64,000 nt of DNA from Jaapia argillacea MUCL 33604. Lineage: Eukaryota > Basidiomycota > Agaricomycetes > Jaapiales > Jaapiaceae. The stretch's first letter is position 1; each line of letters opens with the position of its first letter. A model generated the notes under the pieces. It saw nothing but the letters and a program-made list of their open reading frames with translations, did not search any database and had not been told where the DNA came from. This document shows, piece by piece, positions 9,357-54,978 of the stretch. A program made the translations under genes and the position numbers. The stretch lies in NCBI GenBank assembly GCA_000697665.1, contig KL197752.1:149498-213497 (forward strand), in the 5' to 3' direction.

Positions 9357-11735
9357 ATGCCGCCTCAGGTTGACCTCGTCGTCGTATTCCGTACCGCGAC
9401 CAAGAGTCACACCAAGCAGCAACTTCAGGAGGAATCAGAAGAGGCAGAATTTCAATATTCCAAACTTGTCACGACCCTCAAAAATGCAGGCCTTCAAGCT
9501 ACAGCTCGACGTGGTCAGAAGGAGGGACATCTATTGGTGCTTGTTCGATGTCCACAGAGTCTCCTCACTCAGCTTGTGCACCGTGAAAGGTACGCCCACT
9601 CTACCCATTGCTCCAAGTCTAGAAGTCTCAGTTAGTTTTCAAATAGATATTCAGACTTTCTTTCTGGCTTGCCCCTTACCAACGTCCGCTCCATTGCGGG
9701 AGAACTCGATTCTCCTGACTTGTGTGTTGCCCATCGTCTCCGCATTGTCTACGCCTTTCTCACGTCCACCGTTGCCGATGGGGGACTAGGAATAACACCA
9801 GGATCGGCGGAGTGGAATCGCGTCGAGTCCTTAATGGTCCTTCATGACCACGAGTTCAACAGTCGCTGGATCCGCACTTGGTCAACCCACCAAGTAAACG
9901 CCGTTGAACTGGACAAGATTCGTGAGCAGGTAGGTTTTTCCACCTTTACCTGCTTCATAGTATCCAGTCGTTCAGGGATAACCTCGTTCGATAGTTTGGC
10001 GAAGCTGTAGCTCTCTACTTCACATTCCTCTCGGCTTACTCCAAGTTCCTCCTCTTCCCATCCATTCTGGGCGCTGCCTTCTATTTCCTAGGAACGGCCT
10101 ACTCACCGATCTACTCTATCCTCCTATTTCTGTGGTCCATCGTCTTCGTGGAATACTGGCGTATGCAAGAGCGCATCATCTCGGTTCATTGGGGAACAAG
10201 TGGATCGGTCCGCGTTGAGAAACGTCGCCCTCAGTACCAACCAGGATTCGCATGGTGGAAGAGAGAGCTTAGGATGATTGCGAGTGTGCCTGTCATCGTC
10301 TTGTTTGCAGGGATACTGGCTACACTTTTGACAGCCATATTCCTCTTTGAGGCGTTTATCTTGCATCTGTATACAGGTCCTGGAAGTCAATACATGGTCA
10401 GCAGCTATTCTGTTCCACATCATGCTCAGTTCTAAACTCAGTTTCCAGGGTTTCGCGCCGACTATCATCTTCCTCGCTTTGGTACCTCGATTCTTGGATT
10501 ACTACCGGTCCTACGCAAAGAGTTTCACGGAATGGGAGAACCACGTCCACCCATCCACTCATGACGCATCTTTAACGATAAAAACGTTCTCCCTCGCCTC
10601 TATCGTCGCTTATCTCGGTCTCGCGCTCTCAGCCTTCGTTTATATCCCTCTTGGCGACCAGGTCACACAATACGTTCAAGCCTATCTATTTCATACCGGG
10701 GTTCCTTCACCTGCCGGTGCAGCAGTCGTGAATCAGACCCTTAGCAGCGTTGGCGAACAGCTGAAGATTGCCTTGAACGCGACGAGCAGCGGAATGTCTG
10801 CCGCTGGCGCTGGAGTTGTTCGTCAGCAACTTGATACATCAAGGTTGCAGAACCAGATGTATGCGTATACGGTGACGGACCAGATCCTTGACACATTCTT
10901 CGAGGTTGGGTTACCATACATCATGCGTGCCGTCGACTCGATCAGGGCCGGTAGCGGGGTGTATGATGCTGTCTCTAGGCGCCACTCGATGCATTTTGGC
11001 TCACAAAAAGCGAAGAACATTCTATTGGAGAACGAGACCCCCGGTGCCGATGGGAAGGACGAGACGGAGTTTTTGGAGCAAGTTAGGAGGGAGGTAGGGT
11101 TGCCGCAATATGAACTTTTCGACGACTACAGTGAAATGGTAACACAGTTTGGATATATCGTGCTCTGGTCGACCATCTGGCCATTGGCCCCACTCATGGC
11201 GTTCCTAAACAACAAATTGGAGTTGCGTTCGGATGCATTCAAGATCACGGTGCATGCTCGTCGACCTATCCCTTCGCGCGCGGATACCATTGGTCCATGG
11301 TTGGATATGATGACTTTCATCACCTGGCTTGGTGCTCTGACCAACTCAGCCCTCGTCTACTTGTTCCGACCTCGCTGGGACGATCACGTATACCCACCAA
11401 CGACAATTCAAAATAATACAGGTCAAGCTCGCCCGACTTCAGGTCACCTCGTGCTGACTGCACTGTTGATCGCCCTTGGTGCTTCGCATGGATCTATCCT
11501 TGTCAGGGGTCTTATCGGGCATTTGATGGAGATGTTTATGTGGAAGGGCAGTAAGGAGAACGAGGAAGCGGATAACTCGGCAAAGGAGCTGAAGGAAGCC
11601 TACTTGGAGAGCTTGGGCGTGAAGAATGAAGCAGAGGTAGACAAGACAAGCGAAGATGGGGATGAACATGAGCATGGGTTCTGGGCCAGGGATGAAGGAT
11701 TGGATGAGATTAGGAGGGTGTTGAAGGATGCTTGA
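9357..11735 (+). CDS. Anoctamin / TMEM16 family protein (Ist2-like), copy 1
   Basis: Multi-pass membrane protein of the TMEM16 scramblase/channel family. Fungal members act at ER-plasma membrane contacts or as lipid scramblases. Exons are 9357-9589, 9647-9929, 9995-10396 and 10449-11735, giving 734 codons. The N-terminal cytosolic domain (QVDLVVVFRTATK) is followed by about ten hydrophobic spans, among them FLLFPSILGAAFYFLG, VPVIVLFAGILATLLTAIFL, FSLASIVAYLGLALSAFVYI and a stretch ending WPLAPLMAFLNNKLELRSDA. The acidic DDYSEMVTQFGY segment and NNKLELRSDAFK lie in the conserved core. The C-terminus is charged and lacks the long basic tail of yeast Ist2. A tandem copy follows 339 bp downstream. 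Confidence 0.92.
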
Positions 11736-12074
11736 GGGTGTTGGGGATAGGCGGGCCAGTCAGAATACTCACTGGCAGCTCTCCTGAAAAAATTTGCCAG
11801 CTGTCTTGTAGTTTAGATACTCCCACTCCGAGTCCATCGTTCTATGCTTGGAAAGTAGTCCGTTCGTTTCTGTGAGTTCTTTTGCCGTCTGCCTCCAGGC
11901 TGCGGTGCCGCGTAACGAGGTCGTCAGATTGGCTTCAGGTTTGCCTCGTGTTTACGTCATCGGAAGTTCAGGCACGAATGACGTGCAGGCCTTCTCCTGC
12001 CGTATATCTTGCAAGACAGACTTTGTGGTCCTGTACCGGCCGACTCGCACCTCAAGCCCAGTGAAGGCCTCAAG
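11736..12074. other. Spacer between the two anoctamin genes
   Basis: 339 bp holding the 3' end of copy 1 and the promoter of copy 2. No other gene seen. It does not visibly resemble the region upstream of copy 1, so the copies probably have different promoters. Confidence 0.5.
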
Positions 12075-14493
12075 ATGCAGCCCCAAGTTGACCTCGTCGT
12101 TGTCTTTCGCACCGCGACCAAGAGTTTCTCCAAGCAGCAACTTCGGGACGAGGCAGAGCAGGCAGAACTTCAATACTCCAAACTTGTCACTGCCCTCAAG
12201 AATGGTGGCCTTCAAGCTACAGCTCGGCGTGGTGACAAGCAGGGTCATCTCTTAATACTTGTCCGGTGTCCACAGAGTCTCCTCACTCGCCTTGTGCATC
12301 GTGAAAGGTATAGTCAACTACATCGGATTGCTGGAGTGTGCTGCACTAACCGTGAAATAGATACTCAGACTTTCTTTCCGGACTTCCGCTCACCAACGTC
12401 CGCTCTATTGCTGGGGAGCTTGATTCACCTGATTTGTGTACTGCCGATCGTCTCCGCATCGTACATGCGTTTATCACGTCCACCATTGCCGACGGAGGGC
12501 TGGGGATAATGCCAGGATCGACCGAGTGGGATCGTGTCGAGTCCGTGATGGTTCTTCATGACCACAATTTCAATGAACGCTGGATCCGAGCTTGGACAAC
12601 CCATCAAGTTGGTGCAGTTCAGCTGGACAAAATTCGTGACCAGGTGAGCTTCTTTCCTTTCATTTAGCTATCCGACCTGGTTACTTACTACTAGTTTTCT
12701 CCTTCGATAGTTCGGCGAAGCTATGGCCCTCTACTTCAACTTTCTCTCCACTTACTCCAAGTTCCTCATCTTCCCATCCGCATTAGGCGCAGCCTTCTAC
12801 TTCCTGGGTACAGCGTACTCCCCGGTTTACTCTATTCTTCTCTTCCTGTGGTCTGTCATTTTCGTTGAATACTGGCGGATGAGAGAGCGTATTCTCTCCG
12901 TCCGTTGGGGTACCCGTGGATCGTTCCGCGTTGAAAAACGTCGGGCTCAATATCAACCTGGATTCCCATGGTGGAAGAGAGAACTCAGGATGATTGCGAG
13001 TGTACCTGTGATGATATTGTTCGCAGTGGCACTGGCCGTCCTTTTGACGGCGATGTTCATCTTTGAGGCCTTCATCATGCATTTATACACTGGCCCCGGA
13101 AGTCAATACATGGTGAGAGTCACGTTATTCATTTCCATGACCAACATTTAACATCGGTTTCAAGGGATTTGCGCCTACCATACTCTTCCTCGCTTTGGTG
13201 CCCAGATTCCTCGCATACTACCAATCCTACGCGAAGAGTTTCACCGCTTGGGAGAATCACGCCCACCAGTCTACTTACGACGCGTCTCTGACGATCAAGA
13301 CATTCTCCCTTGCTTCTATCGTCGCCTATCTCGGCCTTGCGCTTTCGGCGTTCATTTATATCCCTCTCGGGGATCAAGTCATGCAATTTGTTCAAGTCTA
13401 CCTATTCAAAACTCAGACCCTATCGCTCAAGGCCGCACACGCCGGAGCAACTATCGTGAATGAGACCCTCGGCAGTGGTGGCGAAAAGTTGAAGAAGACG
13501 CTCAACGAGACCGCCAGTGGACTCTGGATGGCCGATGCCAGTGCTGCTCGGCAGAAACTCGATCCCTCGAGGTTGCAGAACCAGATGTATGCGTATACCG
13601 TGACCAACCAGATCGTCGGCACCTTCTTGGAGGTTGGTTTGCCATTCATCTTGCGTGCCGTCGATTCGATCAAGTCGGGTCGAGGGTTTTCTGGTGCTTT
13701 CGTTTATGCCCATTTGAGGAACGGTAGTAGCTCAGGGAAGGGTAAGAGGGTCGTGTTCGAGGATGAGACCTCTGGTGCTGATGGGAAGGAAGAGAGGGAG
13801 TTTTTGGAGCAGGTTAGGAGGGAGGTCGCGTTGCCAGATTATGAACTTTTTGACGACTACAGCGAGATGGTCACACAGTTTGGCTATATCGTGCTCTGGT
13901 CGACGATCTGGCCGTTGGCTCCAGTCATGGCTTTCCTTAACAACAAACTGGAGTTGCGCTCGGATGCGTTCAAGATCACGGTCCATACCCGTCGACCTAT
14001 CCCTTCGCGTACGGATACCATTGGTCCATGGTTAGACATGTTGACTTTCATCACCTGGCTTGGTGCTCTGACGAATTCTGCCCTCGTTTACTTGTTCCGA
14101 CCCTGTTGCGAGGACCACGCCGGCCACACTACCACGCTAGTCAAGGACCATCCACATACTGTCGCAGCGATTGGTTCTCACACGGCACACGCTCGGCCAA
14201 CTTCAGGTCAGCTCGTGGTGACTGCTCTGTTGATCGCTCTCGGTGCTTCACATGGTTTCATCATCGTGAGGGCTCTCATCGGACATTTGGTGGAGATGGT
14301 GGTGTGGAAGGGGAGTAAGGAGATTGAGCAGGCTGAAACGTCCGCGAAGGAGCTGAAGGAGGGTTATTTGGAGAGTTTGGGCGTGAAGAAGGATCGGGAG
14401 GTGGAGAAGACGAGTGAGGATGTGGATGGGAACGGGTTCTGGGTGAAGGATGAGGGATTGGATGAGATTAGGAGGGTGTTGAAGGATGCTTGA
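12075..14493 (+). CDS. Anoctamin / TMEM16 family protein (Ist2-like), copy 2
   Basis: Tandem paralog of the preceding gene. Exons 12075-12307, 12361-12643, 12711-13112 and 13165-14493 give 748 codons. The first three exons have exactly the same lengths (233, 283 and 402 nt) as in copy 1, and intron phases are identical. It starts MQPQVDLVVVFRTATKSFSK. The membrane core is nearly the same as copy 1. The largest differences are in the loop after the fourth exon's second span, which has extra residues (TQTLSLKAAHAGA), and in the region near HTTTLVKDHPHT, where copy 2 carries a His-rich insertion. The duplication is recent but the loops have diverged, suggesting different regulation or partners. 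Confidence 0.92.
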
Positions 14494-47827: not shown

Positions 47828-49596
47828 TGACATGGTCTCTCCTACGCTCTACCATTCATGCATGCCCCTCTATACGATTGCTACAAGCATCCTTCATCTC
47901 TCGCGTCGTCGTCCGTCCCTTGTTGTTATGTATAACAAAATACATGACCCTACATGCCGCATGCTCTGAATATCTTGCTTGCTTGTCCACCTTTGCCTGT
48001 CTCGATTCTTGGTTTACGGTTGTGTCGTTCTTTTGCGCTCGATTCGCTGATCTCGCGCCATCCCGCTGCTCTGAACGAGATCTTCGACGCGAGCGGACGT
48101 CAATCGTGTCTTCTGCGTTTCAGAACAGCACAATGTTAGCGAGGTTGAGGTGAGTCCAGTCTGTTTTTAGCTGGGGGAGATCCAAGTAAAATTCGGCAAC
48201 AAAATTCGAAAAAAGCTTGGCGTGGAAGTGATCAATCGGCACAACACGAGTCCGAGAGAGAGCGCCCTGAGAGCGTGTTAGAGCTTGATAAGATTTCTCC
48301 ACATCGTGTGTTGAGATTGTGTTGGCTTTGAAGTCCGCGATGCTGAGGACGGTGTTTTTCTTGCTCTTGATGGTTTCTAACGGGTGGAGAAGGAGACAAA
48401 GTGCGCCATCTGACGGTAACCGTACTGGTACTCGTCCTCCAAGCCCGAATCTATGTTGAATATAGGTTCTTTACCCATGCCAGAGCCCCACATCCTCCCC
48501 CGAGATCCAAAGGGAACCAGCAGCGATAGACAGGTCTTGACAATGTTCTAATGATACTTAATCTCAACGGACAAAATGGACGATTTGGGTAATGATCGAC
48601 ACGGGCATTTGTATGAGCCCCAAGCCAAGGTGAGAGGTTTGGTCCTATCGGAGGTAAAGGGTCGTTCTTGCCGTTGGGTTCGATTTTTTTGATGAGTGAG
48701 ATGAGCTGCGCATTTCGGCGCCCATCCCCCTTGTAGGGAATCGAATGTGAGGGGGAGGGGGGCGGTGAGTGTTTGGGAGGTACGGTGATACATCATTCTC
48801 CAGAGCAGGTGTTGCAGCTATGTTTGACGCCATCTATGATTGGGTTTCGGGTTCGGTTGGCGAGCATTCTACGATTGGGACCCTGCATCACTCCCCTAAA
48901 AATATGGAAACAGTTGTTATGCTACTTGGTGACTTACGTATGGGATCCCATCGGGATACCGAGGGCTTTGCTCGCCGTTACAGTGGCTGGCTCATCGAGG
49001 GATGCGTCGTAGGCTACATATTATCTGCCCGTAAAGTCTTTCACGATCGGTACGTTCCATTGTTAATTGTTCCGGACATCTTTCATGTCGCCGTCCGATC
49101 TTCGTAATCCTCTCGGAGATGGGGCGCATTTGGCACTATCTTATCGAACATTAACTTTCTTCCTTATCCTTAATCACGGTGCAATCGAAGAACAGATGAT
49201 CAAGAGATGCGACACTCCAGGTTGGGATGATTTGTCTTTCCACTCTATCATCTGCTCGGTACCTGCGTCAGGCAGGACCTCTAGAGTTGGGATACCGAAT
49301 AACCTCGGTAGAGTTGGCAAAAGACGCCATACCCCTCGACGATGCAACGTGGGCGATGCGAACTATTTCTTGATCCCATTCGATCTCGCCCGTAAAAATC
49401 ACTAATAGATCCGGTTGAAGCTCAGGGTTTGTATAAGCTTTGATAACTGTTACGGTAGATCTTCCTGGACGAGGCCGGAAGTTGCTATGATGAAAGATTT
49501 GCCCGATAAATACAATGTGGAGGGAATGTAGATTGGGGGGGATGGGACGTAGGAATGACGGAGGATTGGAGGGGTCTTGTGTCCATGATCTAAGAC
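47828..49596. other. Gene-poor 1.8-kb region
   Basis: No named gene. A minus-strand open stretch (48120 to about 48420) encodes a protein-like C-terminus with SIADFKANTISTHDVEKSYQ and FSNFVAEFYLDLPQLKTDW. Upstream of it the minus strand reads SGMGKEPIFNIDSGLEDEYQ in another frame. This may be a decayed or wrongly split gene; I cannot assign it. The plus-strand frames near 48770-49400 look random. Confidence 0.3.
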
Positions 49597-49734
49597 AGAT
49601 AAGGGGAATGAACCAGGAGGCTGTCGTTCCCAGGATGCATCGGAATGAAATAGGTTATCTCCCATCGGAAGCATATCAAATTAGACGTTTGTGATTGGTT
49701 GACGGTTGCCGCCCCTGTTATCTTGTTTTTATCT
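49597..49734. promoter_or_regulatory. Cluster of four AGATAA boxes upstream of the GATA repressor
   Basis: AGATAA at 49597-49602 on the plus strand, and its complement TTATCT at 49655-49660, 49718-49723 and 49729-49734. All lie 195-335 bp upstream of the start codon of a gene whose own product should bind (A/T)GATAA. The last two are 11 bp apart, about one helical turn. Confidence 0.6.
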
Positions 49735-49843
49735 CCCAGTTCGTGTCCCGCTCCTGTCCTTCTTCTCCTCCCCCCACCTCCATCACCGTCCTCGCCTTCC
49801 GCCCCCAGCGCTCCTCCCCGACTCGTTCTGCCCACCCGTCGCG

Positions 49844-49852
49844 TATATATAA
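49844..49852 (+). promoter_or_regulatory. TATA box of the GATA repressor gene
   Basis: GCGTATATATAACCC lies 77 bp before the chosen ATG at 49929, after a CT-rich stretch. This supports choosing MSPVVLEPP rather than an upstream in-frame ATG at 49695 as start. Confidence 0.6.
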
Positions 49853-49928
49853 CCCTTTTATAGGCCCCTTGCCAACTGCTTACCATTTCACCTGCTACGT
49901 GGACGCAATTGCGAAAAAAAAACCTAAA

Positions 49929-52900
49929 ATGTCCCCAGTCGTTCTGGAACCGCCTATCATGAACATGCACCATAATTCGCTCTCGTCGATCTCCAGAATG
50001 CCCCAGTTCAACTCTAACATATCTAATCCACAAGATCATCTCTCTGCCAGACACGACCACCATCACCCGAACTCGGCCACATCATCACCCAATTCTCCGA
50101 CTACTCACTCGCGTTCTGGTATGCAGGGCCAGCAGTCCGACTCGTCATACCAGTCTATCCGCTTGTTGGAGGAGGCAAGTGCAACCGCGAACCCCCCTGG
50201 TAGCGCTGCCCCAAATCCGTCCTGCGCCAACTGTGGAACCCACACTACTCCGCTGTGGAGGCGTGATGGCGAAGGAAACCTCATATGCAATGCCTGCGGT
50301 GAGTTTAGTGTCTACGCGTCCCTCTTTGCGATCTCCGCTCTTTGTCCGCGATATCTTCGTAGCCACGTGTTCGCGATGTGTTGAACCCTATCATCATATC
50401 ACACTCGCTATTCAGGCATGGAAGCATGGAAACGCTTGTTGGCTCATGTCTTCAGCGAGGATATCGTTCATCTCCCACACGTTCCCGTTGTCCTGGCGTT
50501 AAAAAGGCTACAGATTGCTGACGAGAACATACGATGTGCATGCTGGTTTTGCACTCCGTTTGTGCACTATTGTTGTCACCTATTTTATCCAGGTCTCTAT
50601 CTTAAATCTCGCCATATGCCCCGTCCTCCTTCCCTAGCAAGGACGCCGACACCCTCGAATCAGAATCAAAACATCCATCCCGATTTGCTCCCAGGTGCGA
50701 AATCGGAAATGAATGGCCAGCGCCAGAGGTCCTCGTCTCCCCGCTCCGCCTCGGTGAGTTGGTTGCCTGCCAACAAGATGCAACGAAACGCTAATATCTG
50801 CCCATCTACAGCAACCACAGCGTTCGCCTGTGCAACCACAATCATCACCAGCGGACCGTCACTCAGCACCTACGCCCGTTCCTCATCTGACAGCCTCAGG
50901 GGGCACGTGTCCCGGAGACGGTCGATGCGACGGCACTGGAGGTACATCCGCGTGTTCGGGCTGCCCAACGTTCAACAATGCAGTTTCATCTGGTCTCGTT
51001 GACCCTCAAGAAGGTAGTCAAGCACCTCCTCAGAAAACCAATGGAAGCCCCGCTAATCCAAGTGCAGAAGCAGGCAAGCCGAGCGCATCAGGGGAGACTA
51101 CCGATCCGGCGTCGCCGAGCGCAGGTGCTGCTGCTACTCCAGGTCCTGGCCGAAACGTCCGAGGGCGAGGGGGTGTCGGCGCTTTGAGTTGCGCGAATTG
51201 TGGGACCAGTACCACTCCACTTTGGAGGAGGGATGATGTTGGCAATAATATCTGTAACGCCTGTGGTGAGTCCTCCGACGCTCGATTCCTATTTTTTTCA
51301 TCCACCCCCTACGCCGTTCGTCTCGCTGGCACGGTCTCGGAGCGACTCGAAATCTCGCGCTTTGACACCCGTGGGTGATAAGGTGCACGTGTTTTCAGCG
51401 AGCGGAGCTCCAAATATCTTATCAGATAATTTTTGGGGAGTTCCCGTTATCTTTGAAGATTACCGGACAGGCTCTAGCTCGACGCAGGAACTGTAACTTT
51501 GATTTACTTCATTTCGTCTCCATCTCGACAGTTGATGACCCACATTCTTATCTCTATTCTATGTCTGATCTGATTCCTCGTTCACCGTAATTTCTCATTC
51601 CAAAACGGTATTGACCATTCTAACAGGATTGTACTACAAACTGCACGGCACGCATCGTCCAAACTCCATGAAAAAGACGGTAATCAAGAGACGGAAACGC
51701 GTTCCCGCTGCTGGGCCCGGTTCAGGTTCGGGTTCGGGAAGGTTGTCCGATCAGGCGGCAGCCGAAGCGCTTGTCAGTGTCGGTCGGGTTCATCAGGATC
51801 GGATGAGCGGTGCTGAAGGTGGAGATGAAAGTGATACTGAGGCTGCTGAGCAGCCGAAGAGGAAGCGGGCAAGGAAGGGAAAGTCGGAAAAGGCGGGTGG
51901 GAAGGGCAAGAGTAAAGTTGGTGGGGCAGTAGATGAAGATGCTGCCATGGATGACGATGAAGAAGAGGAACCTCCAGCCCCCCCTTCAAGAAGGGTTGTG
52001 GAAAGGCGGCGTTCTGCGAGGGAGGGTGGATTAACAACTGCTGCGCCGGCTGTGACCCCGTCTTGGGCGGATATGCAGCAGATCATGCAGGTGAACGGCA
52101 CTTCACCTGTTCTAGGTGTCGATACTCAGCGTTCGCAGAGTGTTCCTCGACAAGGAACTCAAGAATATAATGAAGCTACCGCAGCTGCGCAAGCGCGTGG
52201 ATCTGGCGGGCACGGTCCGTTCGCCCATCATGGAGGTAGCGCTGGGGGCTTTGATCTTCCACCTTTGAACCATGCACTTGGAGGGAGTGGGTACGGTGGA
52301 TATCACAGTATGAGCAGTTATCTCCGATCAGGGTCGACGCCTAGCAGGACCCATTCGCCTCTTTCACAAGTGACTGGTGCCGCTGCAGGCACTTCGGCTT
52401 ATATGTTGCCTCCTCCCCACAGCCTTGGGTTGTCTCATGGTCTGGGTGGTGGTACTGGAGGGACCCAATCGCAATTCTACGCCGGTGGACCGGGGCGGGG
52501 CTTGTCTGCCTCTCCGCCTGCACACTCCCACTCGCCTGCGCCACCTGGATCTTCTCATTCACACCATGCTCATCACGGCTTGACCGGACCTGGATCGGCT
52601 ATGGGTATGCCGCCTCTACCTATCGCAGTATCTATGGCTATGCCTGCTTCAGCTTCTGGGATGGGTGGCATCCCCACGTTGGACGAATTGGAGGGACATT
52701 ATCACCAGCTGAGAGAGCACAAAAGACGGTTGGAGGATATGATGGAGAAAAACGACATGATGATGGAGAGGGTTAAGAGGGGAATCGACGAGTTTCGGTC
52801 GATCTCATCTGGTGGCACTGGTGGCACCGAAGGCGGCAATGGGAACGGTGGTCGAGGAAGTGTTGCACAAGCCGTGCCGCTCTCGCGAGGTGGGGAAAGG

Positions 52901-52969
52901 CGAGAATCCATCTGGCCCATCGTTCCGGCCGACTCATCCAGTGGCGCTCACGGGGGCAACCGCGAATGA
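49929..52969 (+). CDS. Two-finger GATA factor of the Fep1/SreA/Urbs1 iron-responsive family
   Basis: Transcriptional repressor of iron uptake and siderophore genes in fungi. First GATA finger: [19 protein letters not shown] with ICNACG, then after a 294-nt intron [14 protein letters not shown]. The central cysteine-rich box [20 protein letters not shown] is the hallmark that separates this family from nitrogen or light GATA factors; it is linked to iron sensing. Second finger: [19 protein letters not shown] with ICNACG, then after a 361-nt intron [17 protein letters not shown] basic NLS-like stretch follows (KRKRARKGK), an acidic run (DDDEEEEP), a Gly/Ser/His-rich region and a C-terminal coiled coil ([20 protein letters not shown]). 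It ends GGNRE. Start chosen at 49929 because a TATA box lies 77 bp upstream. Confidence 0.92.
51376..51553. promoter_or_regulatory. GATA boxes inside the second long intron of the GATA repressor gene
   Basis: Within intron 51266-51626 there are TGATAA at 51376-51381, the palindromic TTATCAGATAA at 51419-51429 (containing ATCAGATAA at 51421-51429), and TTATCT at 51447-51452 and 51548-51553. ATCWGATAA is the published consensus for SreA/Fep1-type repressors. Binding here is inferred. Confidence 0.55.
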
Positions 52970-54978
52970 CGGTGATGTGGGGGGTATGTCTCCAAGCCGA
53001 TAGATCAATGTTTATTGATTGGATTGCCTTCCCTGCCCTTTATTTCCCGCCCTCGCCTTGCGTCTGGCTGCGGTGATTGGCGTAAGCTAACCGTGCGTTT
53101 CATTTAATTTACGTCGTCGCGCCTCTTGTTTTTCGCTTTGTTGCATCCTGCCATCATGGACTTCTGCATTTATTTCGTTGGTTGGATTGATTCCTCCCCT
53201 CGATTCCCTCCCACCCCACGTTTCTATTACTTATCGCTCTATGACTGCGGCCAACCTCCACCCCCTCCCCACTTGGGTTATCTTCGCTTATCGTCTATTG
53301 TCTATTCCCCACTTAAATCATTCGTAAATTACTTGATCTTTTACAATGTTGATTTCTTTCGTTTTTCGGCGAACATCTATTCTTCGTTGGCGGTGCGGTG
53401 TTGATTCGTTCTGTTGTGGATTTTAGCTTCTGGTTTGTTCGTGCGGCCCTTGTGCCTTGGAAACGAAATCCTGATACGACTGTCTTTTGTGATGTTTATA
53501 ACATAGCCAACTATAATGTCCACGACTTGCATGGCCTGGTACCTTCTTCGTGATCCACTGAATAGGCCCATCCGAAGCATCCCTACCAGCAACCTGCAAG
53601 ATCTCGAGCTTCGCATTACGGTAGAACATTATCGGAGTGTGGCAGGTGCGTGTTCTCCCCTGTATCAAGAAGTCTTGCTCTTCCTTCTTGTTAGGATCTG
53701 GGTCACCAGTTTAGTGACCGACTCCAATGGGAGTCTCTGAACCCCGAGCAGCCGACTGGCGGCTCCTGGTCATAGTTTCGTATATCAACTACCCACCAAA
53801 CGTCCCACGTCACGCTATTCGCATGTCGCTACGCACAGCGACAAAGAACCTTTGGCCAAGGTCCTCTGCCGCTTTGTCTTCGCGTGTATCTAACGCTAAC
53901 ATCGCGATTTCCTTTCCAATTTTCGAAGACGCTGCAATCCCTGTGACGCATCGAGGCTGGTCTCACTCCATTGTGCCTCACCTTTCAGCCTTAAAAGTCC
54001 CTCTCCTTCCACTACTATCATGCATCCTTGGAAATGCCGATTTTCAGTAGGGTACGTCGCGACGCCCTGTCAGTTTGGTCTCTCGCTGACCCTGTTCAGC
54101 CGTTGAGCAAAGCTCCCTCATCATGCGCGTGCCAGAGCGACGACCGTGAATGCATATAGGCATCACCTAGCGTTTGTCCTCCGCTCCATTCTTGTCAGCA
54201 ACAAAGTCAGTCGGGGTCGACTGACAATCGCCGCTGACAATTCTCAGGCACCATGACATCGCTCTGGCTGGGGAGGTGTGGGGACTCGTGCGGCGAGTGG
54301 AATCTTAGACATCTCGACATCGTATGCTGACCACACCGAGCGTCTTCCGGCATACAGAAGTGGGGGAACGATTCTCCCCCCTCTACTGCTCTGACTGGTA
54401 TTGGGACACCTGTCTTTCCTGGAACGACGAGCAGAAAGTTGAGCGTATAACGCCATCAAAACCTTGGTCTCAGTCATAATCACCACATCCCCTTCTTGCA
54501 CCTCCATGTCTAGTAAGTATGCATGTACACTTTTTCAGTCCGATGCCACCCAGTTGCGCTGTGCATAATCCCTGCCCAAGCTTTAATGTTGCCAGTGGAG
54601 TTGAATGCCGTTGTCTTACCATAGCCCTCTGTCGCGTGAGCTCATTGTATGCTACCAACAATATGTACTCACCTTGGCGTCGGATTACCGCTAGCCAAGT
54701 TCGTCTCAACGGACACGGCTGGTCAAGCCAAGTATTTGAAGCTTGTGGGTTGATATGGTCCTCTCACTCATTGATTTAAATCCCCATATTCCCAAGTCAA
54801 CGATGAAGGTGTGGCATACTACGTACCATACACTAAGACTACGGACTACGTACACTGAACAAAACTAAAAAAGAAATTGTTGTCCCATAAACAAAATAAA
54901 ATTAAAGAAAACGGTTCCAATACGACGAAGCTGGTATCGCACGTCCTCCCTAAGTACCCCACCCTAACAATATACCAA
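52970..54978. other. Gene-poor 2-kb region
   Basis: 3' flank of the GATA gene and 3' flank of the next minus-strand gene. It is rich in pyrimidine runs near 53100-53340. No open frame looks coding. Confidence 0.45.

Follow-up and report, generated by a model that had tools for sequence, protein, structure and literature searches.

A GATA-site cluster with a near-palindromic core in an intron of a likely iron-sensing GATA repressor gene of Jaapia argillacea, and its possible role in autoregulation

Iron regulators of the SreA/Urbs1/Fep1 family are characterized by two GATA fingers, a cysteine-rich box with four cysteines between the fingers, and a C-terminal coiled coil. The gene studied here has, like SreA, Urbs1, Fep1 and Cir1, two fingers with a cysteine-rich box between them. 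It lies in a 64-kb window (the whole stretch of DNA that was analysed) on contig KL197752.1 of Jaapia argillacea MUCL 33604, whose genome assembly comprises 43.7 Mb in 95 contigs, and its third intron contains the GATA sites that are the subject of this report. The extended core ATCWGATAA is of the SreA/Urbs1/Fep1 type, and sites of Ustilago maydis sid1 and of Schizosaccharomyces pombe genes are stated to comply with it (PMC2610380). The ftrA promoter of Aspergillus fumigatus carries ATCAGATAA with a GATA site ahead of it (PMC10294635).

The J. argillacea genome resembles these systems in having ATCWGATAA upstream of FTR1/FET3 genes, as in A. fumigatus (PMC2610380, PMC10294635), but differs in that the regulator gene itself has the box inside an intron, and in that 4 of 5 FTR1 sites have a longer form, TAATCWGATAA. 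Control of GATA genes through GATA sites, both upstream and in an intron, is described for vertebrate Gata2 (PMC2936534). There, the palindromic GATA site is 1.8 kb upstream rather than in an intron, and the evidence comes from tests in cells and mice, whereas the present case concerns a fungus and is predicted from sequence. In yeast, the GATA factor Dal80 is found across transcribed regions, but its spreading needs active transcription and starts at bound promoters, whereas an intronic cluster of sites is proposed here (PMC6413948).

The gene has four exons and a 775-residue product, and from its sequence features it is likely to encode an iron-sensing GATA repressor of the SreA/Urbs1/Fep1 kind, as an earlier note on this DNA had claimed. 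The Pfam GATA family matches the protein in two stretches (6.4e-31; the scan took five proteins, three of which came from the palindrome loci L033, L035 and L048 described below). In the translation both fingers have the spacing Cys-X2-Cys-X17-Cys-X2-Cys, and a query made of the two fingers joined has GATA-4, GATA-3 and GATA-1 as its closest chains of known structure. The box between the fingers is present in the spliced protein with its four cysteines, as judged against the general family consensus rather than an aligned member. A 35-residue stretch visible in the translation is a candidate for the C-terminal coiled coil.

Intron 3, the second of two long introns, carries the box, in agreement with the earlier note. 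TTATCAGATAA consists of two inverted GATAA half-sites and matches ATCWGATAA on both strands (51421-51429 on the plus strand, 51419-51427 on the minus strand). The exact match within an 11-bp palindrome had been recognised correctly, except that this is strictly a near-palindrome because the half-sites flank a single central base. The three further GATA hexamers reported within 180 bp are likewise present, as WGATAR at 51376, 51447 and 51548. Four bp from the first of these, TGATAA, is an E-box; each long intron has one CACGTG (50364 in intron 1, 51386 in intron 3).

By itself, ATCWGATAA is weak evidence. It is expected 1.02 times in the window, and at least two copies occurred in 24 of 100 shuffles. 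For TTATCAGATAA the expected number in the window is 0.01, and the genome has a modest over-representation of it, with 32 copies vs 14-19 expected from third- to fifth-order Markov models. When intron 3 was shuffled 5000 times with dinucleotides preserved, at least five WGATAR were obtained at a frequency of 0.0008, any ATCWGATAA at 0.0068, and the 11-mer at 0.0002. Clustering was assessed in 264 kb, made up of 21 stretches, 20 of which were chosen for carrying the palindrome, a choice that should push the count elsewhere up rather than down. These 20 of the 32 palindrome places were fetched at 10 kb, and their genes were modelled with a home-made, crude gene finder. The only cluster of at least five WGATAR in 178 bp was that of intron 3, and a total of one arose across 12 third-order simulations of 264 kb. 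With overlaps merged, three clusters of at least four sites in 178 bp were found (simulated mean 0.75), and two of them belong to the GATA factor gene (49597-49734 and 51376-51553). Taken as a cluster, the sites exceed what chance would give. Another of the three merged clusters lies in the promoter, which has eight WGATAR in 1 kb (shuffle P 0.003); this points to control of the gene by a GATA factor.

Table 1. Positions of the GATA factor gene, its GATA sites and related features. Coordinates are those of the window, except in the last row.
Feature	Position	Strand	Basis or detail
Iron-type GATA factor gene	49929..52969	+	ATG to stop; open spliced frame, 2 complete GATA fingers
GATA factor exons	49929-50298, 50593-50753, 50812-51265, 51627-52969	+	Spliced translation
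Promoter GATA cluster, 5 WGATAR in 294 bp	49441..49734	.	Motif search; includes TTATCTTGTTTTTATCT at 49718-49734
Putative TATA box of the ordinary promoter	49844..49851	+	TATAWA matches
Intron 1, 294 nt	50299..50592	+	In finger 1, at the codon position of intron 3 in finger 2
Cysteine-rich box between fingers, 20 residues	50908..50967	+	Translation; coordinates counted by eye
Intron 3, 361 nt, phase 1	51266..51626	+	Splice signals; finger 2 restored by splicing
GATA cluster, 5 WGATAR in 178 bp	51376..51553	.	51376(+), 51419(-), 51424(+), 51447(-), 51548(-)
TGATAAGGTGCACGTG, GATA site adjoining E-box	51376..51391	+	Motif search; CACGTG at 51386-51391
TTATCAGATAA, ATCWGATAA on both strands	51419..51429	+	Motif search
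FTR1 TAATCWGATAA sites	G000 C5:1306095 (L028), C6:402562 (L038), C12:152144 + 152165 (L027)

Elsewhere in the genome, ATCWGATAA has the look of an iron box. In a set of 14 iron-related loci totalling 42.8 kb, it occurs at seven places in five loci vs 0.62 expected, and at six places vs 0.54 when the GATA factor gene is left out. All three FTR1 permease loci found have it upstream of the start, with five sites in total: contig C12 has two copies 21 bp apart, C5 a single copy, and C6 a further two in a promoter shared with a divergent FET3-like reading frame. The core motif upstream of these loci is indirect evidence that the factor may bind ATCWGATAA and repress iron uptake genes. TAATCWGATAA is found at 33 places genome-wide, four of them upstream of FTR1 genes; a P value for this form at FTR1 promoters would be circular, given that these very promoters supplied the form, and is not relied on. 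The three GATA words that the promoters on C5 and C6 have in common fall within identical stretches of 22, 17 and 29 bases. Near the sole VIT1/CCC1 match in the genome, TTATCAGATAA occurs ∼300 bp beyond the predicted end (L048 position 4995, G000:C13:611628), and another palindrome is located ∼2.6 kb beyond the exons matched in the FTR1 gene on C6. Siderophore-related controls were weak and were not used as support (two weak matches to nonribosomal peptide synthetase condensation domains and three to TRI12 transporters), nor were major facilitator superfamily transporters, for which 9 of 153 candidates were scored.

The introns of the GATA factor gene measure 294, 58 and 361 nt. The median length was 58.5 nt among 88 introns of up to 400 nt, taken from well-scoring complete models that the same crude gene finder gave at 20 loci; two reached at least 290 nt and one at least 361 nt. 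The description of intron 3 as about six times the local norm therefore holds. Its splice signals (GTGAGT, CTAAC, AG) match the consensus, and it splits the glycine codon of CNACG/GLYYK in finger 2 (the slash marks the break). Both long introns cut this same glycine codon, one per finger. Some of the other finger matches in the genome run uninterrupted through the codon (C18, C1) or extend past it (finger 1 of C15, and C27); the second finger of C15 is broken at a different place. Introns 1 and 3 gave a local alignment not above shuffles (P 0.37), so that their shared finger position has no surviving sequence support, and a repeat search returned only short repeat pairs within the gene. As an observation in its own right, the C15 gene (L018, reverse strand), a second GATA gene, has a 12-nt micro-exon, TTGTGGGCTATA, at position 1662 of the reverse complement; it is flanked by a 90-nt and a 60-nt intron, and joining it restores a complete finger.

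Autoregulation, in which the GATA module of intron 3 and the promoter cluster bind the gene's own product and adjust its transcription, is a tenable reading because iron-type GATA features, ATCWGATAA at three FTR1 loci, and GATA clusters in both promoter and intron coincide. We give it a probability of about 0.4. Intron 3 would be a binding module for a GATA factor and the promoter cluster a second one, and under iron-replete conditions the binder would most likely be the two-finger protein that the gene itself encodes. In the two-finger structures of GATA-3 and GATA-1, a palindromic site is contacted by both fingers. Similarly, the near-palindrome may engage both fingers simultaneously, with neighbouring single GATA sites adding avidity. 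The direction of the effect is a guess, mild self-damping. It is doubtful that the iron-loaded repressor, on the palindrome of the intron that interrupts its own DNA-binding finger, would go further and slow elongation or splicing in response to iron, tuning the amount of complete two-finger protein. An intragenic feedback switch in a fungal iron regulator was not found in the literature searched, outside which most subscription journals lie.

A number of observations weigh against autoregulation. TAATCWGATAA, the form of most FTR1 sites, is absent from the intron and from the whole window, so that the intron has the general ATCWGATAA core and not the local FTR1 form. The consensus itself was derived from A. 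fumigatus promoters (PMC2610380), which weakens its use here. The C5 and C6 FTR1 promoters are paralogous (85% identity over 310 aligned columns) and hence do not count as independent cases; of the five HGATAN words in C5, two are not retained in C6, and further identical 17-base runs of the two promoters contain no GATA. ATCWGATAA was not found at the single HapX locus, in the five ferric-reductase-type upstream stretches read (of 12 exon matches), or at three SidA-like loci (weak, 22-28 bits), and the VIT1 palindrome is past the gene, not in a promoter position. Among relatives, urbs1 of Ustilago shows no marked difference in its transcript between iron-poor and iron-rich conditions (PMC10672361), and more iron raises sreA in A. 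fumigatus (PMC4232046), so that strong self-repression would be unlike them. The A. fumigatus SreA paper does not contain the string 'autoregulat' (PMC2610380), and passages on chromatin immunoprecipitation of Blastomyces SREB give HAPX and others as targets, but not SREB (PMC4482641). Other GATA genes of this fungus are possible binders, and the cluster and neighbour tests were picked after the site was seen. One scan of viral contigs confirmed no relative. The earlier proposal of autoregulation via the intron is supported in part: the iron-type gene, the core motif at FTR1 loci and the clusters speak for it, and the missing FTR1 form and the origin of the consensus weaken it.

It is nearly as likely that the arrangement is due to chance, that is, a long intron with several short GATA words, noticed since the gene encodes a GATA factor. 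ATCWGATAA has a 7% probability in a 5-kb stretch like this locus. Its 660 copies in the genome show no excess over third- to fifth-order Markov models (601-738), so that most copies need no function, and the excess over the reversed pattern (217 copies) can be put down to composition. Iron genes were recognised at only two (L038 and L048) of the 20 palindrome loci, although most neighbours were judged by eye. Moreover, intron 1 is not much shorter and interrupts its finger at the equivalent codon, and it has one WGATAR and no ATCWGATAA. Chance accounts less well for the palindrome, which has a probability of only 0.4% in this locus, for a five-site cluster that is unique in the sampled 264 kb, and for the clustering of sites in the promoter of the same gene. 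Rather less probable is a real module that serves another GATA factor, of the nitrogen, light or development type, and feeds the iron regulator another signal. WGATAR is common to GATA factors, and the genome has 11 finger matches in a family search, with two further genes, on C15 and C18, that seemingly have two fingers. The lack of the TAATC flank and the E-box close to one GATA site also fit such a factor. The type of the core (PMC2610380) and its presence upstream of all three FTR1 loci found argue for an iron regulator instead.

The earlier note had also raised an alternative internal promoter in intron 3 yielding a form with only the C-terminal region. This was rejected because the intron lacks core elements: neither TATAWA nor CCAAT is present in it, in contrast to the ordinary promoter with its TATA box. 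In addition, the first two ATGs 3' of the box open reading frames of 12 and 9 codons, ahead of an ATG that leads to a 433-residue product without a complete finger. If intron 3 were retained, translation would stop after 365 residues and the product would still have finger 1 and the cysteine-rich box; the in-frame stop is the TGA at 51376-51378, followed by TAA, within the first GATA site, TGATAA. The length of the intron and its many sites are compatible with a shortened protein made by either route. Nevertheless, this is very improbable given the consensus splice signals, an intron RNA whose folding is not above that of shuffled copies (z 0.41; equalled or bettered by 66 of 100), and zero Rfam matches in 48500-54000.

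Outside this locus, two adjacent predicted genes at 10163-14493 of the window have similar starts (MQERIISVHWGTSGSVRVEKRRPQYQPGF and MRERILSVRWGTRGSFRVEKRRAQYQPGF) and are likely a tandem duplicate.

Independent of how the intron is read, the 33 TAATCWGATAA places, with four upstream of FTR1 genes, provide a short list for a candidate iron box and its regulon. If autoregulation is true, intron 3 would take part in the feedback circuit through which this fungus controls its central iron repressor, and fusions of the promoter made without introns would miss this element.
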